This document shows, piece after piece, positions 2,010-39,406 of a DNA stretch of 64,000 nt. Source of the stretch: an uncultured Eubacteriales bacterium (lineage in GTDB: Bacteria; Bacillota; Clostridia; Christensenellales; Aristaeellaceae); contig CADBKQ010000015.1 of NCBI GenBank assembly GCA_902795275.1, forward strand, positions 1 to 64,000, in the 5' to 3' direction. The position numbers and the translations under genes are program-made. Below the pieces are notes generated by a model that worked only from the letters and a program-made list of their open reading frames with translations, had not been told where the DNA came from and made no database searches. Every line of letters starts with the position of its first letter. The stretch's first letter is position 1.

Positions 2010-2014
2010 GACTT

Positions 2015-2044
2015 TTGAAAAAGGCTAAAAATATGTGATATAAT
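2015..2044 (+). promoter_or_regulatory. sigma-A type promoter for the S51 peptidase gene
   Basis: TTGAAA (2015-2020), an 18-bp spacer and a perfect TATAAT (2039-2044). A GGAGGT ribosome site and the ATG at 2061 follow closely, so the leader is very short. The promoter suggests that the peptidase is a separate transcription unit from the radical SAM/ligase pair. Confidence 0.65.
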
Positions 2045-2060
2045 AAATGGAGGTAATACT

Positions 2061-2609
2061 ATGAAAATGCTGTTGACATCTACTGGTTTAAAAAGCAAGG
2101 AATTCCAGGATGAGTTCCTGAAGAATGTGAAGAAGGACATTGGGAGCGTAAAAGTCATTTTCGTTCCTACGGCAGCAAATGATGACGAGGCTAAAGCACT
2201 GCTTCCTTCATGCATGGCTGACTTGACCAATCTCGGCGTATTAGAAACCAATATCCTAATATACGATTTGGACTACGAATTATCCTACGAAGTAGGTTGT
2301 AATTATGACGCGATCTATTTCTGTGGCGGTAGTACTAAATACTTGTTAGAACGGATTAATGCAATAGGTTTTTCTGATACTTTAAAGAGACTTCTGGATA
2401 ATGGTATGTTCTTCGTGGGGGTGAGTGCTGGAAGTAAAATATGTGGCGATAATTATAGTGGTAATTTAGGATACTTGCATAGGAACATTGAATTACACTG
2501 TTCGAGCGGAAGTCCATTTGGGAAGGTCACAGATAATGATACTATTCTATTGACAAATACTCAAGCATTATCAATACATGATAATGAATGGAATATAATA
2601 GGAAATTGA
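2061..2609 (+). CDS. peptidase family S51 (PepE/cyanophycinase-like) protein
   Basis: The 182-residue protein has the S51 signature: FCGGSTKYLLERI, then GVSAGS with the nucleophile serine near residue 122. Family members include alpha-aspartyl dipeptidase PepE and cyanophycinase; they are cytoplasmic hydrolases of Asp-linked peptides. The start is the ATG 6 bases after GGAGGT. It is somewhat shorter than the usual 200-230 residues, so a C-terminal piece may be missing. Because it sits beside an amino-acid ligase homologue, it could cleave or trim a peptide or amide made by this cassette, but that is inference. Confidence 0.8.
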   Translation: MKMLLTSTGLKSKEFQDEFLKNVKKDIGSVKVIFVPTAANDDEAKALLPSCMADLTNLGVLETNILIYDLDYELSYEVGCNYDAIYFCGGSTKYLLERINAIGFSDTLKRLLDNGMFFVGVSAGSKICGDNYSGNLGYLHRNIELHCSSGSPFGKVTDNDTILLTNTQALSIHDNEWNIIGN

Positions 2610-2634
2610 AGTTAAAGAAATTGTACAGATAAGA

Positions 2635-2721
2635 CTGTTACGTGATTGCACAAATAGATTGAAATTGCCAACTAAGAATGCTTTGGTTACTTGATTTGTG
2701 CATTTATAATAATAGTAACAG
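2635..2721. other. nested inverted repeats in the leader of the kinase gene
   Basis: Three inverted repeats lie inside one another: CTGTTAC (2635-2641) with GTAACAG (2715-2721), TGCACAAAT (2647-2655) with ATTTGTGCA (2694-2702), and an inner CCAA/TTGG pair. A TATAAT (2705-2710) sits in the right arm. The structure could be an operator region, a terminator for the S51 gene or a leader RNA; a clean T-run is missing. Confidence 0.5.
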
Positions 2722-2788
2722 CCTCTATTATTTTGTTACTCACAAAACAATAAATTGAAGCGCTTTGCTTTTATCAGAGGTGAATAGT

Positions 2789-3688
2789 ATGAGCACTGGA
2801 TACAGCATTGAACCAAAGTACCAGAAGCGAATTGCTGAATTATGTAATAACGTAAACTGGAATTATAATGACATATTTCTTATTAAAGAACCGATTGGAG
2901 GAACAAATACTACTTTTTTTGTCTCATATCATGATGAATTATTTGTTTTACGCATTGCTACTGACACTATTGATTTGTTGCAAATTGATAGAAATGCAGA
3001 AGCTGAAGTCATGAGAATAGCTTCAAATGATGGAATTGGATTAAAGCTATATTATTTTGATGAGAATAATGGCGATATGATAACATATTATGAAGATGGT
3101 CATGTTCCTACAATGGATGAATTAAAAAAACAAAGCAACATAGACAAACTTATTGAACAGTTTAAAAAGCTGCATGGTCATCATGTTGCACATTTTTTTA
3201 TGCCGACAGTAGATATTGAAAAACGTATCAATAGAATATCCTTAGATAAACAGTTAAATAAGAGGAAAAACTATACCATAGCGTTGTCGCTATTTCGTTC
3301 AATTCAATGCAAATTCAATTCTTTTGATCAACGGTTTGTTGGACTTTGTCATAATGATGCGAGTAATTATAACATGCTGTTGGGAGAGGAGATAAAATTA
3401 CTTGATTTTGAGTTCGCGGGAATGGGAAATATCTTTTACGATTTAGCCTGTGTCTGTGGATTATGGGGTATTGATGACCAAATAATGTTTTTACAGAAAT
3501 ACTTTGGATGCGTAGATAGAAACTACCTACATATTATAAAAGACTACACAATTCTTGAATTGATCTGGAATGGAACGTGGGCATATATAAAATATACTGA
3601 TAACAATTTAATTGATATTGATTATTTAGGGTGGGCGGATGAGCAATTCGGACTTGCGATAGATTTGTTGCATCATAATTCGGTTTGA
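2789..3688 (+). CDS. LicA/choline kinase-like phosphotransferase
   Basis: This 299-residue protein belongs to the APH/choline kinase fold. The catalytic loop HNDASNYN (HxDxxxxN) lies around residue 195 and is followed by the metal-binding LLDFEFAGMG and the YDLAC helix typical of LicA and choline/ethanolamine kinases. An N-terminal GGTNTTF loop takes the place of the nucleotide-binding loop. I chose the ATG at 2789, preceded by AGAGGTG at 7 bases, over an in-frame TTG at 2765 without ribosome site. Such enzymes phosphorylate choline, ethanolamine, sugars or aminoglycosides; the substrate is not readable. It is the first gene of a kinase-unknown-SDR row and AT-rich like its neighbours. Confidence 0.75.
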   Translation: MSTGYSIEPKYQKRIAELCNNVNWNYNDIFLIKEPIGGTNTTFFVSYHDELFVLRIATDTIDLLQIDRNAEAEVMRIASNDGIGLKLYYFDENNGDMITYYEDGHVPTMDELKKQSNIDKLIEQFKKLHGHHVAHFFMPTVDIEKRINRISLDKQLNKRKNYTIALSLFRSIQCKFNSFDQRFVGLCHNDASNYNMLLGEEIKLLDFEFAGMGNIFYDLACVCGLWGIDDQIMFLQKYFGCVDRNYLHIIKDYTILELIWNGTWAYIKYTDNNLIDIDYLGWADEQFGLAIDLLHHNSV

Positions 3689-3763
3689 GCTTTCTTAGAA
3701 CTATTGTTAAGTCAAAATCAAATAACTCAGAATTTTGATAAAAATGAAGATTGGAGTGGCATC

Positions 3764-4138
3764 ATGTATAGAGGTATCATAATTGAAGAAAGTGTAGATT
3801 CTGAAATCCTCAGTATGTTAAAACAGTTTACTGAAAGCGAATATGTACATATGTTGCAACATAATGATAAAGTTACGATTTTGCGTGTCTCAATCAGTGA
3901 ACCTAATTTGTTACAATTAATGCCTAAATTTCTATATGCAATAAACCAAGATTGTTTCTACTTTCACTTTACTGATGGAGAAATAATGTGGGTTGTGTTC
4001 AAAGGCTGCATTATGAGGATTAATAAAGGTAACTGTGAAGAAATATCGAGATGTAGAAAAGTAGGTGAACTATACAGTATTAGCGCTGAATTGATGAAGT
4101 TTGAAGAAATGTTTGAGAGGGATCACCCAAATGATTAA
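3764..4138 (+). CDS. unknown 124-residue protein
   Basis: I do not recognise this family. The start chosen is the ATG at 3764, just after GGAGTGG; an in-frame upstream TTG at 3704 lacks a ribosome site. The protein is soluble and mixed alpha/beta, with an aromatic patch (DCFYFHFTDGEIMWVVF) in the middle and no signal peptide, membrane helix or metal-binding cluster. Its end overlaps the SDR gene by 8 bases, so it is probably co-translated with it and part of the same cassette. Codon use and base composition match the other island genes. Confidence 0.6.
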   Translation: MYRGIIIEESVDSEILSMLKQFTESEYVHMLQHNDKVTILRVSISEPNLLQLMPKFLYAINQDCFYFHFTDGEIMWVVFKGCIMRINKGNCEEISRCRKVGELYSISAELMKFEEMFERDHPND

Positions 4139-4829
4139 GAACTATATAATATTTGGAGGCTCTGGCGATTTAGGAAAGAGTTTAACCACAGAATTGTTAC
4201 TTGGTAATGCTAATGTGTGGGCCTCATACAAAAATAACCCTATAGATCTAAAAGGAAGCCCTTTTTATTTCGATGCGGAAAAAGGATTGTCAACGACTAC
4301 ATTGGAATTATTTACAAAATTGCATATCGATGGGCTAGTTTTTTTAATTGGTAAAAAATCAGGCAAAAAACTTGTTAGAGAAACAAGTCTGAAAGAGTGG
4401 GAAAATTTGCTTGACATTAATGCGTTAAGTTTTCTCAAAATCTATAACCAGTTGTACGAAGCACTAAGAGAGAGTCGCACCAAAATTGTTGTTATCAGTT
4501 CCAGCGCCCCATATGAAAACAAAAGACTAAATGGAGCCTATTCAGGGTCAAAAGCCTTATTGGAAAGCATATGTTTGACAATAGCAAAGGAAGAAGAAGA
4601 AAATGGAATAAGAATTAACATAATTGCCCCATCGCTAATAGATACTAAACTTGCAAGAGAAATCGTGAAATTAAAAGGATATCAGAATTTTGAGCAATAT
4701 GTCGCTGAATGCTTGAATGGCAGAATATTGAAAACAAAAGATGTAGTAAAAATAATATGCGAATTATTATTAGATGATAATGCTTGTAATACTACTGGCA
4801 AAATAATTAGATTGGGAGATTATTATTGA
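4131..4829 (+). CDS. SDR-family NAD(P)-dependent oxidoreductase
   Basis: The 232-residue protein carries the classical SDR elements: the dinucleotide loop GGSGDLGKS near the N-terminus, a VISSS segment with the catalytic serine, and the YSGSK catalytic Tyr/Lys pair, followed by INIIAPSLIDT. It probably oxidises or reduces a hydroxyl or keto group with NAD(P)H in the cytoplasm. The ATG at 4131 overlaps the stop of the unknown gene and has GAGAGGG upstream; an earlier ATG at 4101 lies inside that gene. It is the last gene of the AT-rich cassette. The substrate is unknown. Confidence 0.85.
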   Translation: MIKNYIIFGGSGDLGKSLTTELLLGNANVWASYKNNPIDLKGSPFYFDAEKGLSTTTLELFTKLHIDGLVFLIGKKSGKKLVRETSLKEWENLLDINALSFLKIYNQLYEALRESRTKIVVISSSAPYENKRLNGAYSGSKALLESICLTIAKEEEENGIRINIIAPSLIDTKLAREIVKLKGYQNFEQYVAECLNGRILKTKDVVKIICELLLDDNACNTTGKIIRLGDYY

Positions 4830-5180
4830 GATTTGTGTAAGCGCATCATAAACGCATGGTAGGTTTGCAAATGAAAATGCTTGCAACGTAATGAAGCAAG
4901 CATCGAAACAAAGAGGAAGCAAGATCAGAGCCAGTGGTCAATCATCGTGGGAGAAGCAGGGTAGCATGCTCGTAGGAATCCCAATTCAGTTTTTGACCAC
5001 AGAGAGGGTAGAACAACAGGTGCTCACGCTCAATGCATACTGAACAGCGTGGACAGACAGCATAAGTGGTAAAGGTACCAGGATAGAAGGGTTCACGCCT
5101 GAAATGGTCAACCTTCAATCCAAGTCTGTAAAACTAGCGCTCAAGATCTAGTCTTCTATTCGGGCAGTATCTATTCGGCC
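4830..5180. other. intergenic stretch between the cassette and the IS, with decayed ORFs
   Basis: No intact gene is visible here. It holds a hairpin without T-run at 4877-4903 (ATGCTTGC/GCAAGCAT), an 8-bp inverted pair GTGGTCAA/TTGACCAC about 50 bases apart near 4934-5001, and two decayed zinc-ribbon reading frames on the minus strand, which are listed separately. Confidence 0.5.
4942..5118 (-). pseudogene. small zinc-ribbon ORF, probably decayed
   Basis: A 58-residue minus-strand frame starting from a TTG reads FYPGTF...CPRC, CIERE, YPLCGQKLNW and ends in LLLPR. This resembles the small zinc-ribbon proteins I remember from Clostridial mobile elements, where the second knuckle would be CPxCGQ. 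Here the third cysteine is a tyrosine (TAC for TGC), so zinc binding is probably lost. No good ribosome site precedes it. I call it a remnant of the mobile element that also carries the recombinase. Confidence 0.45.
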
Positions 5181-5184
5181 GGTA
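5134..5184 (-). pseudogene. C-terminal ORF fragment cut off at the IS end
   Basis: In the same frame as the zinc-ribbon ORF and directly upstream of it, a 16-codon tail (ending CPNRRLDLER) runs out of the IS end and stops at a TAG. It looks like the end of a gene whose body was lost at the insertion. Confidence 0.25.
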
Positions 5185-6528
5185 CTGTCAAGTATTATGC
5201 GCAAATTTGTCAGCAGGCTCTGGAACTGAAGCCGGTTAAGCAGTAACGGAAGCGTCATCCAGAAGCGCTTCCAGGTGCTTCATGCTCATGTATTTCTTGT
5301 TGCCCCACTGGGTTCCGGCCACATGCCGCAGCCGGGCGCAGACCAGCATCAGGGCGGAATTGCCGTCGGGGAAGGTGCCGACCACTCTTGTTCGCCTTCG
5401 GATCTCCCGATTCAGGCGTTCAAGGACGTTGTTGGTGCGGATCTTCGTCCAGTGCTCGGAAGGGAAATCGCAGTAGGTCAGCGTTTCCTCGATGCCGTCC
5501 TCAATCTTTTTCGCGGCTTCCTTCAGCTTCATGGCTTTGAGTTCTTCCGCGACGATCCGGGCCTTTTCCCGGGCTGCTTTCTTGTTCTCCTGGGCGTGGA
5601 TCGCTTTGAGCATCTGAGCCACCGTCTTCATCTTGGACTTGGGAACGACGCTGAACACGTTGCGGTAGAAGTGGACGATGCAGCGCTGGTATTTCGCTTC
5701 GGGAAACACTTCGCCAACCGCTTCCAGCATGCCCAGGCACTTGTCGCCGACGATGAGCTTCACTCCGTCCAGGCCGCGGCTTTTCAGCCATTTGAAGAAG
5801 TTGACCCAACTGGCCTTGTCTTCTTTCATCCCTTCTGCCGCGCCCAGCACTTCCCGGTAGCCGTCCTCATTCACCGCGATGGCTACCAGCACCGAAACGT
5901 TCTCATATTCACCGCCCCAGTTCCGGCGAAGATAGATGCCATCCACATAGACGTAAGGGTATTTGCCGCCCTTCAAAGGCCGGTTGCGCCAGTCCTCAAT
6001 GTGGACGTAGGCCTTCTTGTTCAGCTCGCTGATCGTGGCAGGGGATACTTTCGTTCCCCACAGCGCTTCCGTGATGTCCTCCACCCGGCGTACCGATACG
6101 CCCGCCAGGTACATTTCCATCAGCGCTTCCTCCACGCTGCTCTCCCGTCGCCGGTACCGCTCAATGATGGCAGTCTCAAAGGAGATTCCCTTCAGCCTGG
6201 GTACATGCAGCGTCACGTTTCCGGAGGTGGTGGTCAGATTCCGGTCGTAGTGTCCGCTCCGGTAGCCCTGCCGGGCCTCGTTCCGCTCGTATCGAGCCGC
6301 CTGCGTCAGCTGCTCTGCCTCCTGCTCCAGCAGCTCGTTCAGCGTTTCCTCTACGCTCCCCCGCACCAGTTCCTTCAATTGCCCCTTGATTACTTCCTCG
6401 TTCAGTGTTACAATTTTCTCGGACATAGTCAGCGCTCCTTTCGAATGTTTAGTCTCGCAACTTCATTCTACCAGAGTCTGCTGACTATGTCTCTTTTTAT
6501 TTTTGGAATTTGCGCATTTTATTGTACC
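5181..6528. mobile_element. IS256-family insertion sequence
   Basis: One transposase gene is flanked by imperfect inverted repeats. ATGCGCAAATT at 5197-5207 recurs inverted at 6507-6517, an inner GTCAGCAGGCTCTGG (5209-5223) recurs with one mismatch at 6471-6485, and GGTAC/GTACC (5181, 6524) may mark the tips. The right end has about 20 extra bases between the two motifs. I could not find a convincing 8-9 bp target duplication, so the exact borders are uncertain. Confidence 0.75.
5236..6426 (-). CDS. IS256-family (Mutator type) DDE transposase
   Basis: The full-length 396-residue transposase shows the three catalytic acidic regions: YVDGIYLR, IVGDKCLGM and NVLERLNREIRRR, plus CIVHFYRN, diagnostic for the family. 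It begins at the ATG at 6426 with AAGGAGCG upstream on the minus strand and looks intact, so the element could still move. Its GC content is near that of the chromosomal backbone and well above the AT-rich cassette, so it probably came separately. The insertion splits zinc-ribbon remnants (left) from the XRE regulator gene (right). Confidence 0.95.
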   Translation of the reverse strand: MSEKIVTLNEEVIKGQLKELVRGSVEETLNELLEQEAEQLTQAARYERNEARQGYRSGHYDRNLTTTSGNVTLHVPRLKGISFETAIIERYRRRESSVEEALMEMYLAGVSVRRVEDITEALWGTKVSPATISELNKKAYVHIEDWRNRPLKGGKYPYVYVDGIYLRRNWGGEYENVSVLVAIAVNEDGYREVLGAAEGMKEDKASWVNFFKWLKSRGLDGVKLIVGDKCLGMLEAVGEVFPEAKYQRCIVHFYRNVFSVVPKSKMKTVAQMLKAIHAQENKKAAREKARIVAEELKAMKLKEAAKKIEDGIEETLTYCDFPSEHWTKIRTNNVLERLNREIRRRTRVVGTFPDGNSALMLVCARLRHVAGTQWGNKKYMSMKHLEALLDDASVTA

Positions 6529-7025
6529 TTATCGCCTTTAGGCGGGGAGAACTGGACGCGCACGAACAGCGTGAGCGTTATGATAATGCGCTTGCCGTCA
6601 AACGTCAGCTGGCCTCGCTTCGTTATAACCTGGATGGAATGCATCTTGAGTTTCTGGACAAATGCTTGATTGAGAATGAGGCATTTGAGCGGACGGCGGT
6701 TGAGGCGGAACTAAAACGCGAGGTCTTTCTGGTGTGGCGCAATGTTTGTTTTCCCGATGGGGCGCTGGGTGAACGAATGATTGATAATTTGGTTTTGGGG
6801 GTCAGGCTCAAGGATTTGCGGGTTCAGAAGGGCTTAGGCGTTGGTCGGGTTTCTGACCTGGTTGGTGTTGACAAGAAAACGCTTTATTCATACGAAAGCG
6901 GTAAATGTCAAGTTAAGCTGGAGATTATGTATAAGTTGTCCAAGCTTTATGGTGTGCGGATTGACGATTTGTTGTCGGAAAAAGGGGTTATTTATGTCGG
7001 AGATAGCTCGCGTTATGGAATCTAA
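6510..7025 (+). CDS. XRE-type HTH regulator, probably 5'-truncated by the IS
   Basis: The C-terminal half (about residues 98-160) is a helix-turn-helix of the Cro/CI type: LGVRLKDLRVQKGLGVGRVSDLVGVDKKTLYSYE and a LSKLYGV second half. The N-terminal 90 residues are helical with no known domain. The only in-frame start at the left end is a TTG inside the right inverted repeat of the IS, so the original start was probably removed; internal starts are possible. It overlaps the recombinase gene by 32 bases and probably controls it. Confidence 0.65.
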   Translation: MRILLYLIAFRRGELDAHEQRERYDNALAVKRQLASLRYNLDGMHLEFLDKCLIENEAFERTAVEAELKREVFLVWRNVCFPDGALGERMIDNLVLGVRLKDLRVQKGLGVGRVSDLVGVDKKTLYSYESGKCQVKLEIMYKLSKLYGVRIDDLLSEKGVIYVGDSSRYGI

Positions 7026-8007
7026 TCACCATAGGCGCGAGATTAGGGAGGTTTTTCCAGAGTCATATTTGGAGAAATTGAGGGAAATCAGCGGGGTGTA
7101 TTATACAGATAATGATGAAGATAGTGTCTGGCCGCGACGTAGGCGAGTTGCGGCTTATGCGAGAGTCTCTACAGAACAAGAAGAGCAAGCGGGGAGTTTT
7201 CTTGCGCAAGTTGCTTTTTATACTAACTTTATTACCAAGAGGCCAGATTGGCAGCTTGTTAAAGTCTATGCCGACAAAGGATTGTCTGGCACGTCGTATA
7301 AACACCGGCCTGGGTTTGCGGAAATGATCGCAGACGCAAGGGCTGGCAAGATTGATCTAATTTTGACGAAGTCAATTTCTCGGTTTGCGAGGAATACAGT
7401 AGACTCGCTTAGTATTACGCGAGAGCTTAAAGATTTGGGCGTAGAAATAAAATTTGAGAAAGAGAATATCAGCTCCTTTGACCCTAAAGCAGAGATGATT
7501 TTTACAATTCTTTCGTCGTTTGCGCAAGAGGAAAGCCGTTCGATATCTGAGAATGTTAGGTGGGCAAATAAGCGCAGAATGGAAGCTGGAAAATCCCGTT
7601 TTTCTTACAAAAACTTCTTAGGCTACGAGCGTGACGAGGATGGCGAGCCTAGGATTGTCGAAGAAGAGGCTAGGGTTGTACGTAAAATATACCAGTTATT
7701 TTTGGATGGCGAGTCGTATGCAGCAATCGCCAAACGATTAACCGATGAGGGGGTGTTGTCTCCTTCCCGTCGGTTAGTTTGGTCGCCGGGGAGCATAAGG
7801 AAGATTTTGACTAATGAGAAATATAAAGGTGATGAGATGCTGGGTAAAACCTATGTGGCAGATTATTTGACCAAGCAAGTTAAGGTTAATCACGGGGAGC
7901 GCGAACGGGCATATATTAGAGATGCGCACGATGCAATCATTTCTCCTGAAGTCTTTGACCGTGTACAGAAAGAAATTGAGAAACGAAAGCGAAGGAAAAA
8001 GCAATGA
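6994..8007 (+). CDS. short serine recombinase (resolvase/recombinase domains)
   Basis: The 337-residue protein has the N-terminal resolvase domain with catalytic serine in YARVSTEQEEQ, the ISRFARNT arginines and the recombinase domain (VWSPGSIRKILTNEKYKGD). Large serine integrases usually run 450-550 residues with a zinc ribbon and coiled coil; here the chain stops after the recombinase domain in a basic tail, so it may be a short type or truncated. The ATG at 6994 follows AAAGGGG at 8 bases and overlaps the XRE gene. A terminator follows. It probably moved the island that ends near the tRNA gene. Confidence 0.85.
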   Translation: MSEIARVMESNHHRREIREVFPESYLEKLREISGVYYTDNDEDSVWPRRRRVAAYARVSTEQEEQAGSFLAQVAFYTNFITKRPDWQLVKVYADKGLSGTSYKHRPGFAEMIADARAGKIDLILTKSISRFARNTVDSLSITRELKDLGVEIKFEKENISSFDPKAEMIFTILSSFAQEESRSISENVRWANKRRMEAGKSRFSYKNFLGYERDEDGEPRIVEEEARVVRKIYQLFLDGESYAAIAKRLTDEGVLSPSRRLVWSPGSIRKILTNEKYKGDEMLGKTYVADYLTKQVKVNHGERERAYIRDAHDAIISPEVFDRVQKEIEKRKRRKKQ

Positions 8008-29908: not shown

Positions 29909-31483
29909 ATGACACCTGCGATGGAAAATGCGGACATCATCATCCGCGGCGGAACGATCATTGACGGCACGGGGCGGCCCGGATACCGCGGCGACATTGC
30001 CGTGAAGGACGGAATCATTGCCGCACTGGGCGATTTACAGCGTCTACGCGGGCGGCGGGAATTCAGCGCGGAGGGCCTCGCCGTTGCGCCGGGCTTCATC
30101 GACGCCCACGCCCATTCGGACACCATGTTCGTGCGGGACGACAGCGGCGCGTCCAAGCTGTACCAGGGCATCACCACCGAAATATCGGGCAACTGCGGCG
30201 ACAGCCCTTTTCCCATGCGGAAGGGAGACAGTGACCCCTGGATGTTTCCCTCCTTCGAGGAATTCCTGGACGCCTTTTCCCGCCGGGGCTGCCGCATGGC
30301 GGTGAACCAGGCCATGCTGACGGGCCACGGCACCCTGCGGGACGCCGTGATCGGGGAAGCGAACCGCGCGGCCACTCCCGCCGAAATGGAAGAAATGAAG
30401 CGCCTGCTGCGCCGCGATATGGAAGCGGGAACCCTGGGGCTTTCGCTGGGTCTGGAATACGCGCCGGGCTGTTTCGCCAATCAGGCGGAATTAAATGAGC
30501 TGGGAAAAACGGTGCGGGAGATGGAAGGCATCGTCACCTGCCACATGCGCAGCGAAGGGCTGCAAATCGACAGCGCCATCCAGGAACTGGCGGAAATTGG
30601 CCGGGCTTCCGGCGCGCACGTCCACGCTTCGCATTTAAAACTGGACAACTACACCGTGCATGGCCGCGCCCCGCAGGTCTGGGAAGCCATCGAGCAAGCG
30701 AATCGGGAAGGGATTCGCTTCACGGCGGACACCTATCCCTACACCGCTTCCTCCACCACCCTCAGCATCCGCTGCCCCCGGTGGAGCATGGACGGCGGGC
30801 GGGAAGGGCTGCTGCGCTGCCTGCGCGGACCCCGGCGGCAGGAGATCGTCGAGGGCATCCGCCGCCATTACTTTAACGCCGAACGGGCGGAAACCTGCCT
30901 GTTCAGCGACGACCGGGGCACATGGCCGGAGATCGTGGGCAAGACCCTGCGGCAGGTGGCGGAAGACATGCTGCACACCACGGACTACGCCGAAGCCGCC
31001 GCGGAGGTGCTGCTGCGGACGGAGGCGAAAGCCTGGTGCGTGTTCTTCGTGATGAGCGAGCAGGACATGCTGTATTTCCTGTCCCGGGACATCTGCATCG
31101 GCTCGGATGGGTACGCGCTGCCCGGCGAAGCGGCCCAAATGCATTACAACCCGCATCCGCGTTCCTACGGCGCGGTGGCGGAGTTTTTCCGGCTGGCCCG
31201 GGAAAAGCGAATTTGCGGCGTCGAAGAAGCGGTGCGCCGGGTGACGGGCAAGCCCGCCGACATCTTCGGCCTTACCGACCGGGGACGGCTGGAAGCCGGC
31301 TTGGCGGCGGACATCACCGTGTTCGACCCCGCCGCGTTCGCGCCGCGGGCCACATATTTGCAGCCCGTGCAATTGGCCCGGGGCGTGCGGCTCGTGATCG
31401 TGAACGGCACCGTCGCTCTGCGGGACGGCAGGCAGACGGAGGAACGCGCCGGGAAGCTTTTACGGAAGGAACTGAAACGATGA
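29909..31483 (+). CDS. N-acyl-D-amino-acid deacylase (D-aminoacylase, amidohydrolase family)
   Basis: The 524-residue protein has the amidohydrolase opening IIIRGGTIIDGTG, the metal-binding HAHSD in GFIDAHAHSD, a catalytic lid with SGNCGDSPFP and the metal-coordinating HASHLK. D-aminoacylases of this subgroup remove acyl groups from D-amino acids or hydrolyse D-Glu/D-Ala-linked dipeptides. In a murein recycling operon it probably acts on peptides with a D-amino acid. The ATG at 29909 follows AGGAAGAGG closely; an ATG at 29921 is an alternative. Confidence 0.88.
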   Translation: MTPAMENADIIIRGGTIIDGTGRPGYRGDIAVKDGIIAALGDLQRLRGRREFSAEGLAVAPGFIDAHAHSDTMFVRDDSGASKLYQGITTEISGNCGDSPFPMRKGDSDPWMFPSFEEFLDAFSRRGCRMAVNQAMLTGHGTLRDAVIGEANRAATPAEMEEMKRLLRRDMEAGTLGLSLGLEYAPGCFANQAELNELGKTVREMEGIVTCHMRSEGLQIDSAIQELAEIGRASGAHVHASHLKLDNYTVHGRAPQVWEAIEQANREGIRFTADTYPYTASSTTLSIRCPRWSMDGGREGLLRCLRGPRRQEIVEGIRRHYFNAERAETCLFSDDRGTWPEIVGKTLRQVAEDMLHTTDYAEAAAEVLLRTEAKAWCVFFVMSEQDMLYFLSRDICIGSDGYALPGEAAQMHYNPHPRSYGAVAEFFRLAREKRICGVEEAVRRVTGKPADIFGLTDRGRLEAGLAADITVFDPAAFAPRATYLQPVQLARGVRLVIVNGTVALRDGRQTEERAGKLLRKELKR

Positions 31484-32895
31484 GTTTAGCGTATCGCCCG
31501 CTGACCGCGCAGGATGACGCGGCGATTGCGGCGCTTATTCGCGGCAATCTGAAAGCGAACCGGCTGGACATCCCCGGCACCGCCTATTACGACGAAGCCC
31601 TTGACTGCCTGAGCCAATACTATTCCGCCGCGCCCCGCCGGGCGTATGACGTGCTTTTGGAGGACGGCGCGGTGATCGGCGGCGTCGGCCTGGCGGCGTT
31701 CGACGCCTTCCCGGACTGCTGCGAGATGCAAAAGCTCTATCTGGCCGACAGAGCAAAAGGCAGGGGCTTCGGCTATGCGCTGGTCATGCGCATCGAAAAC
31801 AGGGCCAGGGAAATGGGCTTCAAGCGGATCTATCTTGAAACCCACACCAACCTGCAAGCAGCCATCCGGCTGTATGAACGCTGCGGCTATCAGGAAATCG
31901 CCCGGCCTGACTGCGTGGTGCACGGCACCATGAACAAGTTTTACCTGAAAGAGCTGACGCCGTGCTCCGGGCCGGTGGCCATTCCGCTGGAACGGGAATC
32001 CGCCCTCATTCAGGCCGCGCCCGCCTATGACGCGGCAGCAGCGAAGGCTTTCATTCCCGTCATGCAAAAAATCCGGGAGCTGGTTGACAGCCTCCCGGAG
32101 GACGATACCCTGACCTGCTTTGGAAAAGCCGTTCCGTCGCCGGCGGCATTCAAACATCTGAACGAGGAAATCCAGCGCATCGTTGATGATCATCACAAGG
32201 TCTCCCTGATCATGGCCGACCTGAAAACTCAATCCGGCGTGGCGTTCCACTCCACCGAACGCATGTGCACCCAGAGCACCGTCAAAGCGATCTACGCCGG
32301 CGCGGCGCTGGACGCGCGGCCCGAAGCGTTCCTGGAAAACGGCCAGTATTTCCGCGACGCCATCGTGCTGTCCGACAACGACGCCTATGAAAACCTGCGC
32401 AAAATCTACGGCACGGCGCCGCTGCTGAAATGGTGCCGGGAAGCGGGCGTGGACGACGATTTCACAGCCATGCCCTACCCGCGCAACAAAACCGCCCGGG
32501 ACATGTTCAAGCTGTGGACGCGGCTGTACTGCTTCCTGAACGGCGGGTCGGACATTCATCACGCGGGCAGGTACTTCGCGGACTCCGCCGAATCCGCCAC
32601 CAAAGAATGGCTGGCTGGGCGGCTTCCCGTGCAGACCAAAGCGGGGTGGGAATGCGGCATCGACGAAGACACGGAGGTGTTTTCCCTGGACATGATTCCC
32701 GCCCGCTTCGTGGATGGCGACCCGATGAACGACGAAGTCGCCACCAACGACACCGGCATCGTGTACGCGGAGAGAGGGCCTTATCTCTTCGTGATGTACT
32801 CAGATTATCCCCATCCCTTCGGCGTCCCCAACCGGCTGTACGGCCTGGCGGAAGCGCTTTACGAAACGCAAAAGAGCTTTTCTGCCGTCGAATAA
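31480..32895 (+). CDS. GNAT acetyltransferase fused to a penicillin-recognising serine hydrolase
   Basis: Residues 1-150 are a GNAT domain (CCEMQKLYLADRAKGRGFGYALVMRIE, LETHTNLQAAIRLYERCGY). From about residue 185 the chain is a class A beta-lactamase/PBP fold: STVK (SxxK near residue 264), SDN (near 296) and KAG in place of KTG (near 386). No signal peptide is present, so the hydrolase acts in the cytoplasm, unlike standard beta-lactamases. Combined with the operon, it may hydrolyse and acetylate murein-peptide fragments. The start overlaps the deacylase stop (ATGA). Confidence 0.8.
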   Translation: MSLAYRPLTAQDDAAIAALIRGNLKANRLDIPGTAYYDEALDCLSQYYSAAPRRAYDVLLEDGAVIGGVGLAAFDAFPDCCEMQKLYLADRAKGRGFGYALVMRIENRAREMGFKRIYLETHTNLQAAIRLYERCGYQEIARPDCVVHGTMNKFYLKELTPCSGPVAIPLERESALIQAAPAYDAAAAKAFIPVMQKIRELVDSLPEDDTLTCFGKAVPSPAAFKHLNEEIQRIVDDHHKVSLIMADLKTQSGVAFHSTERMCTQSTVKAIYAGAALDARPEAFLENGQYFRDAIVLSDNDAYENLRKIYGTAPLLKWCREAGVDDDFTAMPYPRNKTARDMFKLWTRLYCFLNGGSDIHHAGRYFADSAESATKEWLAGRLPVQTKAGWECGIDEDTEVFSLDMIPARFVDGDPMNDEVATNDTGIVYAERGPYLFVMYSDYPHPFGVPNRLYGLAEALYETQKSFSAVE

Positions 32896-33835: not shown

Positions 33836-34246
33836 TTATGACAGGTTTTTTTTGATTGTCAGCATGTTTTTTCCGTTCTGCCACCGATAAGTTACGCTGT
33901 CCATGCTCTTTTTGACCATGTAGATGCCCAGGCCGCCGATCTGCCTCTCGTCCACGGAAAGCGTCACATCCGGGTCCGGCTTCGCCAGGGGATCGAACGG
34001 AGCGCCGGAATCAATGAAGGTAATGGAAACGGCAGGCGGGTTTTCCTCCGTTTCAATTTGCAGGGTGGCGGGGCCGGACTTCGGCGCGTAGGCGTAGTGG
34101 GCAATGTTGACAAAGATTTCTTCCACGGCAACGTCGATCTGCATCTGAACCTTCATGCTGCAGCCAAGCGCTTCCAGGCGTTCATCCACAAAAGCCAGTA
34201 CCTGGTTCAGGTTGTCCACTTTCGCTTCCAGGGTCAGTTCATGCAT
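33836..34246 (-). CDS. RsbW/SpoIIAB-like serine kinase (anti-sigma type HATPase)
   Basis: The 136-residue protein is a complete HATPase_c anti-sigma fold: the N box AVEEIFVNIAHYAY, the G1 box FIDSGAPFDPL and the G2 box GGLGIYMVKK are all intact, so ATP binding is likely. RsbW-like kinases phosphorylate STAS-domain antagonists or bind sigma factors. It overlaps the upstream phosphatase gene by 8 bases. No STAS or sigma gene is next to it, so its partners lie elsewhere, or the degenerate copy on the MATE protein is involved. Confidence 0.88.
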   Translation of the reverse strand: MHELTLEAKVDNLNQVLAFVDERLEALGCSMKVQMQIDVAVEEIFVNIAHYAYAPKSGPATLQIETEENPPAVSITFIDSGAPFDPLAKPDPDVTLSVDERQIGGLGIYMVKKSMDSVTYRWQNGKNMLTIKKNLS

Positions 34247-35855
34247 CGCGTTTTTCCCCCCTTCCGTTATAATGGAAGCTCAGCATGGTGATGTCGTCAA
34301 ACTGGGGAGCGTCGCCCACAAAGGCGTCGATGTCCCGCCGCACTTCCTTCAAAAGCTCGTCGGGCGCCGCGCTGGGATCGCGGTTCAGGGCGGCCAGCAT
34401 GCGGTCGGTGCCGAACAGCTCGTTGTGCGCGTTCGTGGCTTCCGGCACGCCGTCGGTGTACACGAACAGGCTGTCGCCGGGGTACAGCTCGAAGGGATGC
34501 TCCCGGAAGCGGATGCCGTTCAGGGTGGCGACAGCGGGGGAGTGGCGGTACAGCACCACCTCGTATTGACCGCCCGCCCGCCGGATCACGGGATGCTCAT
34601 GGCCCGCGTTGGCGGCCAGGCCCCGGCCGGTGGAGATTTCGATGATTGCCAGCCAGACGGTAACGAACAGCTCCGCCTCGTTGCCCTCGCACAATTGCTC
34701 GTTGACGTTCTTCAGAATCTCCGCCGGGCTGTCGCCCATCTGCGCCCGGTTCTTGATGAGCGTCTTGGCGATGACCATGAACAGCGCGGCGGGCACGCCT
34801 TTGCCGCTCACGTCTGCCATCACCAGGCAGATATGATTCTCGTCCACCAGGAAGAAATCGTAGAAATCGCCGCCCACTTCCTTGGCCGGGTCCATGGTGG
34901 CGTAGAGGTCAAACTCATGCCGATCCGGGAAGGGCGGGAAAATGCGGGGCAGCATGTCCGCCTGAATCTGGGTGGCCACGTTCAGTTCCGCGCCGATGCG
35001 TTCCTTCTCCGCCGTGATGGTCTGGATATTATCAATATATTTGATAATATCGCCTTCCATCAGGCTGATGGACTCCGCCAGCTCCTGAATCTCGTCCCGG
35101 GTGCGGATGTCCGCCAGGGACGTGGTGGTGGCCGTTTCGTTCTGCGCGAACTCCGTCACGTTGCTGCGGATGTGCATCAGCGGTTTGATGAAATTCCTGC
35201 GCATGTAGAACCAGTACGCGATGCAGAAAACCGCCAGGGTGCCCAGGGAAATCAGGATCATCCGCAGAATGTAGCCCCGCAGGGTGGTCATGATCAGCTC
35301 CATCCACACGTCCACCAGCAGCACCGCCACGATTTTGCCCTGGCTGTCGATCACGGGCAGCATGCTGGAGGTGAGGAAGCCGTATTTCTTGGAGTGGCGA
35401 ACCATATAGTTGTCGGGCTTTTTGCCCTCCGTATAGGCCGCCCACGCTTCGTCGAAATAAGCGGAGAGGGGATCGACGCTCCCGATAGCCATGCCGGAGG
35501 AGTCGTAAATATACCGCATGGTGTGATCCTCGGAAAAGGTCACGATGTAAATATACGCCGCGCCGGACGCCTCCTCCACGCCCTTTAAGTATTCCGCCAT
35601 CGCCGGGTAATCCTCGTCCTCGGTCCAGGTCTGGGCGTAATGGCCGATCTTATCGTGGTCGATGTGCTTCAAAATGATGTTGGCGATCACATAGCCGTTG
35701 TCGTTATAGAGCTTGCGGATCGTATCGCTGTACTGGACATAGCCGCTGAACGTGGAGACGGCGCAGATCAGCACCGTCAGCAGCACGACGCTCAGCAGCA
35801 TCTTTTTGCTGACGCCGAACCGGATGCGCTTGGGTTTCACCTGGTTATCCGCCAT
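34239..35855 (-). CDS. membrane-bound SpoIIE/RsbU-type PP2C phosphatase with sensor and HAMP
   Basis: The 538-residue protein has a first membrane helix (about residues 18-40), an extracytoplasmic Cache-like sensor (QYSDTIRKLYND to DVWMELIMTT), a second helix near 205-228, a HAMP region (FIKPLMHIRSNVTEF), a coiled stretch and a C-terminal SpoIIE phosphatase: DPAKEVGGDFYDFF, MADVSGKGVPAALFM and QFDDITML carry the metal-binding Asp residues. It would dephosphorylate STAS proteins phosphorylated by the RsbW-like kinase encoded downstream. The ATG at 35855 has AAGGAGATG upstream. It overlaps the GNAT gene by 11 bases. Confidence 0.92.
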   Translation of the reverse strand: MADNQVKPKRIRFGVSKKMLLSVVLLTVLICAVSTFSGYVQYSDTIRKLYNDNGYVIANIILKHIDHDKIGHYAQTWTEDEDYPAMAEYLKGVEEASGAAYIYIVTFSEDHTMRYIYDSSGMAIGSVDPLSAYFDEAWAAYTEGKKPDNYMVRHSKKYGFLTSSMLPVIDSQGKIVAVLLVDVWMELIMTTLRGYILRMILISLGTLAVFCIAYWFYMRRNFIKPLMHIRSNVTEFAQNETATTTSLADIRTRDEIQELAESISLMEGDIIKYIDNIQTITAEKERIGAELNVATQIQADMLPRIFPPFPDRHEFDLYATMDPAKEVGGDFYDFFLVDENHICLVMADVSGKGVPAALFMVIAKTLIKNRAQMGDSPAEILKNVNEQLCEGNEAELFVTVWLAIIEISTGRGLAANAGHEHPVIRRAGGQYEVVLYRHSPAVATLNGIRFREHPFELYPGDSLFVYTDGVPEATNAHNELFGTDRMLAALNRDPSAAPDELLKEVRRDIDAFVGDAPQFDDITMLSFHYNGRGEKRDA

Positions 35856-36444
35856 GTTTCTCATCTCCTTCTTCACTGAATTCCCGGATATACAATACCG
35901 CGTCGCAGATGCAGGCATCCTGCCTGCAATACGGGCAGTATCCCTTCGTCCCCGCCCAGGGACTGTGAAGCGTCAGAACCGGGACAAAGCCCGTTTTCAT
36001 CAGGACGTGCCGAATCGGAATCTCCTGACCGAAAGGACGCAGGGCTGCGGCTACGATCATGCTCGCGCCCCTGCTTTTGAGCACCGGCTGCAAATTCGCC
36101 ATAAAGGAGGAAAACAGGCCCAGCTTCCGGTAGGCCGGGTCTGTGCTGGTGGTTTTGTAGACCCCGACGCGCTCATTGCCCGCGTACTTTTGCAGCGCTT
36201 CCGGCTTCTCCTGCACATGGAGAACGTGCAGCGCTTCGTCCAGCGTGGAAAGGAACGCATAGAAGTAAGACACGACTATGCCGTCCCGATCCGCGTCGAC
36301 TACCACATAGAGCAGGTCGTCTTCCCCGCGGATCATCCTTTCCAAATCCTCGATGGAATAGAAATCCCGGGAGATGTTCGCATCAATCAGGCGCTTGATC
36401 TGCGCAAGATCGCGGGGCTGTGCAAGCCTTGTTTCCAGCTTCAT
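35845..36444 (-). CDS. GNAT-like acetyltransferase with a cysteine-rich tail
   Basis: The 199-residue protein has GNAT features: KLETRLAQPRDLAQIKRLIDANI at the start and STDPAYRKLGLFSSFMANLQPVLKSRG near acetyl-CoA motif A, although the R/QxxGxG/A loop is weak. After residue 165 it carries CPYCRQDACIC, four cysteines that could bind a metal. It sits between the MATE-HATPase gene (no gap) and the phosphatase gene (11-base overlap), so it belongs to the signalling operon. The substrate is unknown. Confidence 0.7.
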   Translation of the reverse strand: MKLETRLAQPRDLAQIKRLIDANISRDFYSIEDLERMIRGEDDLLYVVVDADRDGIVVSYFYAFLSTLDEALHVLHVQEKPEALQKYAGNERVGVYKTTSTDPAYRKLGLFSSFMANLQPVLKSRGASMIVAAALRPFGQEIPIRHVLMKTGFVPVLTLHSPWAGTKGYCPYCRQDACICDAVLYIREFSEEGDEKHGG

Positions 36445-38229
36445 TCATTCATCTCCTCTCAGGATGATTTGCAGGGTGTTGACCCCAAAGGCGCTCTGGT
36501 AGTTGACCATCTCCACGATCTTTTTGATCATCCGGACGCCCATATACATATCGTCCTCCACGTCCCCCGTCCCCGGCGAAAAGCTGAACGGATTAAAGGG
36601 GATGCCGCTGTAGCGGATGCGGATGCCGCTGATGCCGCTGACCGAAAAGGCGCGCAGGTCAAAGCTGAGATCGGAAACGCCCTTTTCCGCGTTGACCTGG
36701 CGGATCAGGGTCATCACTTCCTCCATGCTCATTTCCAGCCGCATGGTTTCCTTAACGCTCATGCCGTTCATGGCGCAGAATTCGCTGATGCGTTCGCTGG
36801 CGCTGACGATCTCATCCACGTCCGCGCTGACAGAGAAATTCAGCACTTTTCCGCTTTTCTCGTTGACGAGATCGGTCATCAGGTAACGGGAATCCTGGGG
36901 ATGCCGCCGATGGTGCAGCCCCGTGGCGATCCACCAGAGAAGCGCCGTCGCCAGTTCTGCAAACAGCAGGAACGAGAACACGGAAAAATGCACGGCGATG
37001 GCCAGGCGCAGGCAGAGATACGTCATGACGATGACCCGCAGCAGGATCAGCGCGTTGGCCCAGATATTCAGGCCAGCCATGTTATAGTAGGTGGTCAGGA
37101 TCGTCAGAAGCAGGGCGGGGAAGACGGAAAGGGCCATCCACAGCAGCGGAAGCAGGATGCTTCCCGTCAGGCCGTACATCGCCGGGACCACCCCGGACAG
37201 CGCCATGCACAGCAGCAGAAAGACGACCCCGGCAATGCAGCCGGTTTTCCATTCCTCCCGGAGCAGCAGGCGGCAGCTTCCGTTGTCCTTTTCCCCGCTG
37301 AACACCCCCAGCATCGCGCCGCCTGCGGCGGGCACGCCCAGGGTGACGCACTCTCCAAAGCCCCAAATGCCATTGAGCGCGGTGAACACCGCCACCAGCC
37401 CCGCGCCGCCGCAGCCCATCAGCAGGGCGTTCACGATCAGCAGCCGGACGGTGGCGCAGAGGTTATTGAAGGCCGAGGGGAACCCCGCCGCGGCGATGGT
37501 CAGCCAGTCCCTCCGGCTGCGCGCCATTTCCGGCTTCCAGCTGTAAGGGCTGTCCTTGGAGAACAGGCGGAACAATCCGTACAGGCAGGCCAGCGCCGTG
37601 GCGATCACGCTGGCGAGCCCCGCGCCGAACACGCCCATGTTCCAGACATACACAAACAGCACGTCCAGCGCGATGTTGATCACGGTCATGCCCGTCATCA
37701 TCACGGCCACATCGGTGTTTTTCCCGTCCAGGCGCAGATACCAGAACGGAATATAAATCACGATCTTGGGCAGCGCCCCGATCACCGTGATGACCACATA
37801 CTGCATCACATACTCGCGGGTCGCTTCATCGGCGCAGAGGAAAGACACCAGCGGCCCGCGAAAGGCCAGAGCCAGCAGGGTAATGACTACGGAGGCCAGC
37901 ACTGAGGCGTTCAGGCCGGTGCGGAAAAAGGCGTCGCGCCTCTTCGTGTCGTCAATGCCCATGGCCCGGGCGGCGGGAATCTCCGTGCCCGCGGCCAGGA
38001 AGGAGCCCACCACGCACAGCGCCAGATACACCGGCAGGCTCAGGTTGATGGCTGCCAGCGCTTCGGAACCGATGCGCGTGCCCACCAGAATGCCGTCCAC
38101 GAATACATTGATGTTGACGCTCAGGATGGCAAGCATCCCCGTGATCACCGCTTTGCGGTAGGTAGCCCGAATAAAGGCGGCATTTTGCGCCAGGCTCGCT
38201 TCCCTTGGGTTTTCGTGTTTTATGTCCAT
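36445..38229 (-). CDS. MATE-family transporter fused to a degenerate RsbW-like HATPase domain
   Basis: Residues 1-450 are a MATE transporter with about twelve helices in two halves (FVDGILVGTRIGSEALAAINL, AAAGFPSAFNNLC, GECVTLGVPAAGGAMLG). Residues 455-594 are an HATPase_c domain that aligns with the separate RsbW-like protein of this operon: MEEVMTLIRQV for the N box, YSGIPFNPF for G1 and MGVRMIKK for G2. The N-box Asn is Leu and the G1 Asp is Tyr, so ATP binding is probably lost. The tail could sense or bind the partner-switching proteins. First gene of a four-gene operon. Confidence 0.85.
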   Translation of the reverse strand: MDIKHENPREASLAQNAAFIRATYRKAVITGMLAILSVNINVFVDGILVGTRIGSEALAAINLSLPVYLALCVVGSFLAAGTEIPAARAMGIDDTKRRDAFFRTGLNASVLASVVITLLALAFRGPLVSFLCADEATREYVMQYVVITVIGALPKIVIYIPFWYLRLDGKNTDVAVMMTGMTVINIALDVLFVYVWNMGVFGAGLASVIATALACLYGLFRLFSKDSPYSWKPEMARSRRDWLTIAAAGFPSAFNNLCATVRLLIVNALLMGCGGAGLVAVFTALNGIWGFGECVTLGVPAAGGAMLGVFSGEKDNGSCRLLLREEWKTGCIAGVVFLLLCMALSGVVPAMYGLTGSILLPLLWMALSVFPALLLTILTTYYNMAGLNIWANALILLRVIVMTYLCLRLAIAVHFSVFSFLLFAELATALLWWIATGLHHRRHPQDSRYLMTDLVNEKSGKVLNFSVSADVDEIVSASERISEFCAMNGMSVKETMRLEMSMEEVMTLIRQVNAEKGVSDLSFDLRAFSVSGISGIRIRYSGIPFNPFSFSPGTGDVEDDMYMGVRMIKKIVEMVNYQSAFGVNTLQIILRGDE

Positions 38230-38332: not shown

Positions 38333-39406
38333 TCAGGTCTGGATCTTCAGCATCTGTTCCAGCAGGCCGTTGTCCTCGAACACCATAAAGCTGCGGACGT
38401 TCATCCGCACCTTTTGACCTTCCCGCAGTGCCTTGTATTCATACCCATTGGCAATCACGCGCATCAGGGTGTCGCCCACGCGGACGCGGCAATCGTCCAC
38501 GTCGCCCAGGTAGTACTGGGCTTCCAGCGTGCCTTCCAATACGCCGTCGGGAGCAAAGTAAATGCTTTCGGGCCGGATGGCGACCTCCACCTTCCCGGTG
38601 CGCGGGCCGTCGTAGGCAATGCTCTGCCCGCCCATCGCGGGAAACGCGATGCGGCCATTGGCTGCTTCGCCCTTGAAGAAATCCACCTTGCCCAGGAAGT
38701 CGGCCACGAACTGGTTGATCGGTTCGTTGTAGATCTGCTCCGGTGTGCCGCTCTGTTGCACCACGCCGCGGTTAATGAGGAAGATCCGGTCGCTCATGGC
38801 CATGGCCTCGGTCTGGTCGTGGGTGACGTAGACCACCGTGATGCCCAGCTTCTTCTGAATCTCCTTGATTTCAAAGCGCATGGACTCGCGAAGCTTCGCG
38901 TCCAAGTTGCTTAGCGGCTCGTCCAGCAGCAGCAGCTTGGGCGCGGCCACCAAAGCGCGGGCCAGAGCCACGCGCTGCTGCTGCCCGCCGGAAAGCTGGT
39001 TGGGCAGGCGTTTGGCGTACTGGCTCAGGTGTACGATCTCCAGCACCTTTTCCACCTGTTCTCTGATTTCCGCTTTGGGCACCCTTTGAATGGTCAGGGG
39101 ATAGGCCACGTTGTCGAACACGTTCATATGCGGCCACACGGCGTAGCTTTGGAACACCATGCCGATGGAGCGCTTTTCCGGGGGCACGAAGGTTTTCCCG
39201 CCGGACACCAGCTGGTCGTCGATGTAGACTTCGCCCGAGGTGGGCTTTTCAAAGCCCGCGATCATGCGGAGCATGGTGGTTTTGCCGCAGCCGGAGGGCC
39301 CCAGCAGGGTGACGAATTCCCCTTCCTGAAAGGTTTCGTTGAATTCCTTCAGCACCACGTTGTCGCCAAAGGCTTTTGAGACGTTTTTAATCGTAACGGT
39401 TGCCAT
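38333..39406 (-). CDS. ABC transporter ATPase, ferric iron/polyamine (FbpC/PotA) type
   Basis: The 357-residue ATPase has Walker A GPSGCGKT, Q-loop MVFQSYAVWPHM, signature LSGGQQQR, Walker B LLLLDEP and the switch His in VTHDQTEAMAM, plus a C-terminal TOBE domain (about residues 240-350, VAIRPESIYFAPDG). It energises the fused permease encoded just upstream (16-base gap). The whole set resembles FbpABC. It has AAGGGGTG before its ATG. Confidence 0.93.
   Translation of the reverse strand: MATVTIKNVSKAFGDNVVLKEFNETFQEGEFVTLLGPSGCGKTTMLRMIAGFEKPTSGEVYIDDQLVSGGKTFVPPEKRSIGMVFQSYAVWPHMNVFDNVAYPLTIQRVPKAEIREQVEKVLEIVHLSQYAKRLPNQLSGGQQQRVALARALVAAPKLLLLDEPLSNLDAKLRESMRFEIKEIQKKLGITVVYVTHDQTEAMAMSDRIFLINRGVVQQSGTPEQIYNEPINQFVADFLGKVDFFKGEAANGRIAFPAMGGQSIAYDGPRTGKVEVAIRPESIYFAPDGVLEGTLEAQYYLGDVDDCRVRVGDTLMRVIANGYEYKALREGQKVRMNVRSFMVFEDNGLLEQMLKIQT

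Follow-up and report, generated by a model that had tools for sequence, protein, structure and literature searches.

What does a degenerate kinase-like domain do at the end of a transporter? The question is raised by an operon at positions 33836-38229 of contig CADBKQ010000015.1 from an uncultured Eubacteriales bacterium, within the 64,000-nucleotide stretch that we analyzed and call the window. Four open reading frames (ORFs) on the (-) strand encode, in order, a MATE exporter with a C-terminal RsbW-like tail (MATE::tail), a GNAT-like protein, a membrane SpoIIE phosphatase and an RsbW kinase. A first-pass annotation, made from the letters alone, had described this order with overlaps or zero gap, and so we found it: MATE::tail and the GNAT-like gene are separated by 0 nucleotides (nt), the GNAT-like and SpoIIE genes overlap by 11 nt, and the SpoIIE and RsbW genes by 8 nt. 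We put at about an even chance the reading that this operon is a partner-switching module with a transporter as its output, in which the RsbW-like tail, dead with respect to ATP binding, acts as a receiver for a STAS protein.

Predicted fold of the tail and loss of its ATP-binding residues

The MATE::tail protein (594 amino acids (aa); 36445..38229, (-) strand) matched MatE in Pfam at 2.5e-15, and its whole-protein model had a mean predicted local distance difference test score (pLDDT) of 85.6. The best match of this model in the Protein Data Bank was 3wbn, with a TM-score of 0.84 by target length, which places the predicted structure within the MATE fold. By sequence, the protein is a putative cation-coupled exporter.

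The tail covers residues about 462-590 (36460..36846, (-) strand) and is delimited by the predicted structure. In Pfam it gave HATPase_c_2 at E = 0.023 only, below the cut-off; that cut-off was passed by its homologs in Anaerotruncus colihominis (1.8e-9) and in a paralogue on contig C4 of the window's own genome (1.3e-13). The predicted element order of the tail is b1 462-468, a1 471-487, a2 492-515, b2 522-530, b3 533-540, a3 556-571, b4 572-580 and b5 583-590, and a model of the tail alone had a pLDDT of 89.6. The best structural matches of the tail were SpoIIAB (1th8, Z 14.5) and RsbW (6m37, Z 14.2), with histidine kinases at Z 8.1 or less among the 50 matches listed, and the tail aligned to the operon kinases at an hhalign E of 1.1e-12. 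Because the tails of relatives exceed the HATPase_c_2 cut-off and the model matches SpoIIAB and RsbW, we regard the assignment of the tail to the RsbW/SpoIIAB domains of the GHKL group as firm at the level of sequence and predicted structure. The tail is thus what the first-pass annotation had taken it for, a degenerate RsbW-like domain related to the kinase of the operon, and the HATPase fold expected of it was obtained as an RsbW-like one.

The two substitutions that the annotation had pointed out were placed by alignment. Leu508 (36706..36708, (-) strand) replaces the N-box Asn, at the position of Asn53 in RsbW, and Tyr540 (36610..36612, (-) strand) replaces the G1-box Asp. The motifs of the RsbW kinase encoded in the same operon are intact (N-box EEIFVNIA, G1 FIDSG, G2 GGLG). 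We did not class the tail as a kinase since both the N-box Asn and the G1 Asp are replaced, here and in the 76 unbroken relatives described below; from its sequence it should not work as a canonical one.

Distribution of the fusion and conservation of the dead state

To the possibility, raised at the outset, that the fusion is a lone artefact, a survey of other genomes gave a clear answer. Matches spanning the MATE part and the tail were present in at least 21 of 60 relatives, at least 28 of 391 genomes of the class and at least 8 of 299 genomes of the phylum (own genome included), and a scan of named genomes with patterns of the MATE part yielded 77 loci, mostly from gut and rumen metagenome-assembled genomes as judged by their titles. 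Isolates with the fusion include Anaerotruncus colihominis DSM 17241, Petralouisia muris, Lachnospiraceae bacterium 3-1 and Clostridium sp. Marseille-P3244. Two further MATE::tail paralogues are encoded in the genome of the window, with an intact tail on contig C4 and a degenerate one on contig C27. Fusions across relatives, class, phylum and named genomes rule out both a lone artefact and a sequencing error.

Among the 77 loci, L219 has a broken frame and was dropped, and two others, L178 and L225, run off their contigs. A script confirmed in 75 loci that the dead-tail ORF is the matched fusion; in L180 the match range extends upstream of the ORF, and L219 gave none. Both the N-box Asn and the G1 Asp were replaced in all 76 unbroken tails and in that of the window. 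Over these 77 sequences the Asn had given way to Leu (50), Val (10), Ile (9), Met (4), Ser (2) or Thr (2), and the Asp to Tyr (61), Cys (10), Asn (5) or Thr (1). An Asn stands one place past the N-box position in L190 and L204 (893 aa), where the alignment may be shifted. The RsbW kinases of these operons, that of the window included, kept the Glu, Asn, Asp and glycines in 50 of 50 cases, a set admitted only at more than 100 bits, which favors canonical kinases.

A tree of 139 fusions was built from the MATE part alone by a quick method that gave long-branch warnings, with 4 too-short rows and 14 near-duplicates left out. One clade (SH-aLRT 96) held 73 rows, with dead tails throughout. Mean pairwise identity among the 71 non-redundant members of the dead set was 0.452 in the tail and 0.432 in the MATE part; as the tail is no less conserved than the transporter that carries it, we conclude that the dead tail is under constraint and that its dead state is maintained. 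Recent decay is ruled out by this equal conservation and by the dead state common to all 73 clade rows.

Residues that would contact a STAS protein

In the portion of the RsbV-RsbW crystal structure report used here, Glu49 of RsbW touches the phosphorylatable Ser56 of RsbV, and Asp42 of RsbW touches Arg84/Arg87 of RsbV (PMC7340262). We therefore compared these positions by alignment. The equivalent of Glu49 is retained in the window tail as Glu504 (36718..36720, (-) strand) and was found in 71/71 dead tails, 42/42 intact tails and 50/50 kinases. At the position of Asp42 the window tail has Arg497 (36739..36741, (-) strand); Arg or Lys occupies this position in 52/71 dead tails, 2/42 intact tails and 1/50 kinases. 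Arg23 of RsbW lies outside the alignment used for this comparison.

The partner side was read from 44 STAS proteins of these operons, one of which is gapped at most positions. The equivalents of Ser56 and Tyr53 were kept in 43, and the position of Arg87 was Glu or Asp in 43, the gapped sequence being the other in each case. This pattern is suggestive, being the one expected of an RsbW domain that binds STAS without ATP. As the Glu that meets the STAS serine is kept and the ATP-binding residues are lost, the tail could bind unphosphorylated STAS without phosphorylating it.

Partner-switching genes around the dead tails

An RsbW kinase together with a SpoIIE/PP2C phosphatase, the pair by which we recognized partner switching, is present in the window. 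For the relatives we considered the 49 full-context loci, in which the contig runs on for 3 kb or more upstream and 6 kb or more downstream, and searched the same strand from -3 to +6 kb; a neighborhood STAS protein had to be shorter than 200 aa. SpoIIE was in this span in 48/49 loci, RsbW in 37/49, STAS in 30/49 and all three in 30/49. The co-occurrence of RsbW and STAS gave a Fisher p of 5e-7, not corrected for kinship. These counts rule out that STAS is always in the operon. All five genes stand together in a close relative, L069 (L166 is the same stretch of contig), arranged as STAS, MATE::tail, GNAT-like, SpoIIE, RsbW.

No STAS gene was found in the window operon. The same genome has six STAS sites, all on contigs other than that of the window, and those on contigs C3 and C26 share 59% and 57% identity, respectively, with the operon STAS of L069. 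Each of these two genes is followed by one for a protein of about 180-200 aa that we label PSK, the gene pairs being located at L031:4414-5318 ((-) strand, contig C3) and L033:4933-5792 ((-) strand, contig C26). The PSK proteins of C3 and C26 had no Pfam match, and relatives occur in L074, L075, L130, L135 and L143. The C3 protein has an N-box-like TEEMMGMMRSI stretch; aligned as RsbW domains, the PSK proteins covered 45-50 columns only, with a probability of 73-78 to the tails and 1.1 to the kinases.

The slot between MATE and SpoIIE holds a protein of less than 500 aa (GNAT-sized) in 27/64 loci and one of 500 aa or more (GH3-sized) in 37/64. Two of the large slot proteins were scanned, from L204 and L205, and both matched GH3 (2.6e-61 and 5.6e-62). 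Of the small ones scanned, the A. colihominis protein alone passed an acetyltransferase cut-off, and did so narrowly (Acetyltransf_1, 21.4 vs 20.7 bits).

In seven loci (L182, L185, L187, L192, L197, L205 and L236, the last split by a frame break) an intact MATE::RsbW-tail fusion lies upstream of STAS and the dead-tail fusion. A glyoxalase-family gene stands in between in L205, and a nonribosomal peptide synthetase (NRPS) gene with a reductase domain precedes; L236 is similar by sequence. Separately, we observed triple fusions of STAS, an APH-like phosphotransferase and RsbW (520-535 aa) near intact MATE::RsbW-tail genes, at L126:7139-8701 (-), L130:9452-11041 (+) and L141:12202-13809 (-); that of L130 was recognized by Pfam (STAS, APH, HATPase_c_2) and those of L126 and L141 by sequence. 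STAS::APH proteins without RsbW are encoded at L203:13440-14618 and L221:257-1447.

The C27 paralogue (L018:7714-16998) combines a degenerate MATE::tail gene with an acyltransferase-like gene, a GGDEF-like gene and a SpoIIE phosphatase gene, and is convergent with NRPS genes. Further along the same contig (L030) are an untailed MATE gene and a STAS gene.

Sigma-like genes, sought with four seed sequences at E 1e-5, lay in the span of 3/49 full-context loci (L223, L226 and L229). In L223 an ECF-sigma-like gene (L223:7192-7689, (+) strand) lies directly upstream of the STAS gene of the MATE::dead-tail operon, and L069 has a sigma-like ORF on the opposite strand, some 1 kb upstream of STAS. A complete absence of sigma factors near these operons is ruled out by these four loci; sigma-like genes are not a regular part of the module.

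A second class of transporter with a homologous dead tail

In 13 of the fetched loci we found 14 ORFs for amino-acid-type ATP-binding cassette (ABC) ATPases that end in a homolog of the dead tail of the MATE proteins (hhalign E 1e-15). Four were scanned and matched ABC_tran at 5.6e-34 or better; the others were identified by an LSGGQ-type motif. The G1 Asp was missing from 14/14 of these tails and the N-box Asn from 13/14. In L195, L201, L202 and L206 the ABC::tail gene is directly upstream of the MATE::tail gene, and the L202 operon reads STAS, a gene resembling a substrate-binding protein (SBP) joined to a permease (SBP-permease-like), ABC::tail, MATE::tail, a GH3-sized gene, SpoIIE and RsbW.

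An ABC-type tail match at E 1e-12 or better was found in 9/246 genomes of the class, that of the window included, among the matches listed; 13/14 of the listed matches fell in frames of 362-381 or 910-921 aa and one in a frame of 147 aa, with the ABC domain checked in only some of them. The genome of the window has two ABC::tail ORFs, L250:3930-5021 ((+) strand, contig C50) and L251:8968-10074 ((-) strand, contig C23), each behind an SBP-permease-like protein of 973-1008 aa, and in both the ABC signature and the dead motifs were recognized by eye. Contig C23 also carries a 418-aa ORF with a STAS match (L252:6010-7266, (-) strand), which is longer than STAS-only proteins and may be a STAS::APH fusion.

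The annotation had seen the tail as a possible decoy that binds either the substrate of the kinase or the kinase itself. Of these options, binding of the substrate is favored by the retained and charge-swapped STAS-contact residues, and binding of the kinase has a precedent in RsbW3 (see below). The decoy role as such found no support: since ABC ATPases carry a homologous dead tail, the case for a stand-alone decoy is weakened, and the tail is better seen as a general receiver or output domain. It is a real and conserved degenerate RsbW domain in a partner-switching operon, and that it ties transport to signaling, as also suggested, is probable.

A model for the dead tail and its alternatives

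In the model that we favor, the membrane SpoIIE phosphatase, as signal input, and the RsbW kinase would together determine how far a STAS protein is phosphorylated. In many relatives this would be the STAS encoded adjoining the transporter gene; in the genome of the window it would be made elsewhere and act in trans, the STAS proteins of contigs C3 and C26 being candidates. The dead tail would bind the unphosphorylated STAS without phosphorylating it, and binding would gate the export of a small molecule, perhaps one on which the neighboring GNAT or GH3 enzyme acts. With a homologous tail on amino-acid-type ABC ATPases, one STAS protein could set several transporters together. We thus propose, with a confidence somewhat short of even, that in Clostridia the ATP-dead RsbW domain serves MATE exporters and amino-acid-type ABC ATPases as a portable receiver for STAS, through which one STAS protein, governed by a sensor phosphatase and a kinase, would coordinate export and uptake directly, without transcription.

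Several results weigh against this model. STAS was not found in the searched span of 19/49 full-context loci, the window among them, and the 12/49 loci without RsbW in the span are also without STAS. The acidic residue at RsbV position 87 occurs as well in STAS proteins outside these operons (C3, C26 and C12), so that the contact is not specific; the position of RsbV Arg84 is mostly Thr or Val, and the tails have no conserved counterparts of RsbW Lys44 and Tyr118. The few sigma-like genes near these operons and the GGDEF-like gene of the C27 paralogue make other outputs possible. Intact tails occur in operons with SpoIIE and RsbW (L144, L145 and L147) or with SpoIIE and a STAS::APH::RsbW protein (L126 and L130). 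Finally, tail decay was associated with SpoIIE adjacency in Fisher tests (p 6e-13 within 2 kb, 2e-6 in a wide span), but this association comes mostly from the one large clade, and an independent-pairs test gave no support for linked decay and SpoIIE adjacency (median p 1, few informative pairs). Intact tails beside SpoIIE were seen in L126-L128, L130, L144, L145, L147 and L151, and decay beside SpoIIE in other clades too (L018/L068/L135; L085-L091; L159, L160 and L162). The idea that tail decay follows SpoIIE acquisition was not upheld, for want of independent-pairs support and in view of the counter-examples L144, L145, L147, L126 and L130.

The main rival to the STAS receiver is heterodimerization, in which the tail would pair with the operon RsbW and hold or silence the kinase at the membrane, so that the state of the transporter sets the amount of free kinase. 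RsbW dimerizes via a1 and b1 in the part of the crystal structure report used here (PMC7340262), a topology that the modeled tail keeps, and live kinases lie near the dead tails in the 37 full-context loci with RsbW. In Mycobacterium smegmatis, RsbW3, with no detected kinase activity, binds and antagonizes RsbW1, a heterodimer being assumed by the authors in the sections of their paper drawn on here (PMC7693655). Yet 12/49 loci have a dead tail and no RsbW in the searched span, the substrate-contact Glu kept in 71/71 tails is unneeded for binding a kinase alone, and the b1/a1 residues conserved among tails (F465, S466, F484 and C485) are unlike those of the kinases. We hold heterodimerization to be unlikely.

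The flow of information could also run the other way, with the transporter as a sensor (a transceptor): its conformation, dependent on substrate, would free or sequester STAS via the tail and thereby control a different target of STAS. A receptor-like role would fit a tail with binding as its only activity, the genome holds other STAS proteins and other tailed transporters, and the GGDEF-like gene of the C27 operon and the sigma-like genes near L223, L226 and L229 offer possible targets. Against this, the membrane phosphatase of the module already brings an N-terminal region of its own, and sigma-like genes are as scarce in the searched spans as noted above; we judge this reversal quite unlikely. 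That the tail is a structural relic, a dimerization or stability domain without a signaling role in a neighborhood inherited by descent, accords with the lost ATP-binding residues and with the independent-pairs result but is very unlikely, as the tail equals the transporter in conservation and has invariant residues that do not serve ATP binding, a homologous dead domain is found on a second class of transporter in some of these neighborhoods, and SpoIIE is in the span of all but one of the full-context loci.

The other genes of the window operon and its surroundings

The gene labels of the first-pass annotation were supported by Pfam for MATE, SpoIIE and RsbW and were weaker elsewhere. The GNAT-like protein (199 aa; 35845..36444, (-) strand) sits in the slot that a GH3-type enzyme occupies in many relatives; the Pfam scan found no acetyltransferase match in it. 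The membrane SpoIIE/PP2C phosphatase (538 aa; 34239..35855, (-) strand; SpoIIE 2.8e-46) most likely starts at the ATG at 35855, the longest ORF beginning at 35918. We take its N-terminal region as a sensor. The Cache domain proposed for this protein was sub-threshold (E 0.15), and HAMP was not called by Pfam in the window protein, a relative showing HAMP at E 0.00098, below the cut-off. The RsbW-type kinase (136 aa; 33836..34246, (-) strand; HATPase_c_2 6.6e-23) is canonical.

An ABC ATPase gene with a TOBE domain lies upstream on the same strand (38333-39406) and ends 103 nt before the MATE start; we did not count it in the operon. Elsewhere in the window, a 471-aa ORF at 31480-32895 ((+) strand) has, by eye only, an acetyltransferase-like N-terminal and a serine-hydrolase-like C-terminal part. 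Guanine-plus-cytosine content rises over positions 1-8000, from 0.34 in the opening 4 kb to 0.47 in the 4 kb that follow, and is 0.56-0.63 in the rest of the window; the left end is perhaps foreign DNA.

Comparison with known systems

The first-pass annotation knew of no described system of this kind, and in the open-licence literature of PubMed Central we likewise found neither a title nor an abstract dealing with a fusion of RsbW to a transporter, in a search that covered the MATE fusion and not the ABC fusion. Partner switching is known mainly from sigma-factor control (SpoIIAB/SpoIIAA/SpoIIE; RsbW/RsbV/RsbU), with which the present operons share the kinase, STAS and PP2C families and the predicted SpoIIAB/RsbW fold of the tail. 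They differ in having a second RsbW domain, without ATP-binding residues, on a transporter, in the GNAT- or GH3-type gene between, and in the rarity of sigma-like genes nearby. ABC transporters with C-terminal regulatory domains, such as MalK with EIIA-Glc and MetN, show that the C-terminal domain of the ATPase can take regulatory input; in the ATPases described here that domain is a dead RsbW.

In SulP/SLC26 transporters, too, one half of a STAS/RsbW pair is carried on the cytoplasmic side, as covered in the part of a review used here (PMC8256260). There the fused half is STAS; in the present proteins RsbW takes that place, and the transporter families are unrelated. The M. smegmatis RsbW3 resembles the tail as an RsbW homolog without detected kinase activity that serves as a binding partner (PMC7693655); it differs in being, in the sections of that paper drawn on here, a protein of 194 aa that has no transporter fusion and binds the anti-sigma factor RsbW1. 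A further likeness is to SiaABCD of Pseudomonas aeruginosa, where, according to the part of the source used here, a STAS protein under the control of a phosphatase and a kinase acts directly on a non-sigma effector: unphosphorylated SiaC binds and activates the cyclase SiaD (PMC8457831). The kinase, SiaB, which has an RsbW-like fold, matched the tail model at Z 10.4. The SiaABCD effector is a diguanylate cyclase bound via a stalk, whereas the proposed effector here is a transporter reached via a dead RsbW domain; by analogy, SiaC-SiaD may be taken as the nearest working precedent for STAS gating of the tails.

Several STAS outputs (SypA, RbaV and HmpV) act on unknown or uncertain targets, according to the consulted part of the same review (PMC8256260). 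A candidate target fused to a dead copy of the kinase predicts a binding partner, a surface and a dependence on phosphorylation. The loci of the tailed transporters adjoin acyl- and peptide-modifying genes, and the proposed receiver role, if true, would let Clostridia of the gut and rumen link export and uptake to a sensed signal without transcription. The parts belong to partner switching and are known; what we consider new is the dead RsbW domain as a putative receiver on transporters.

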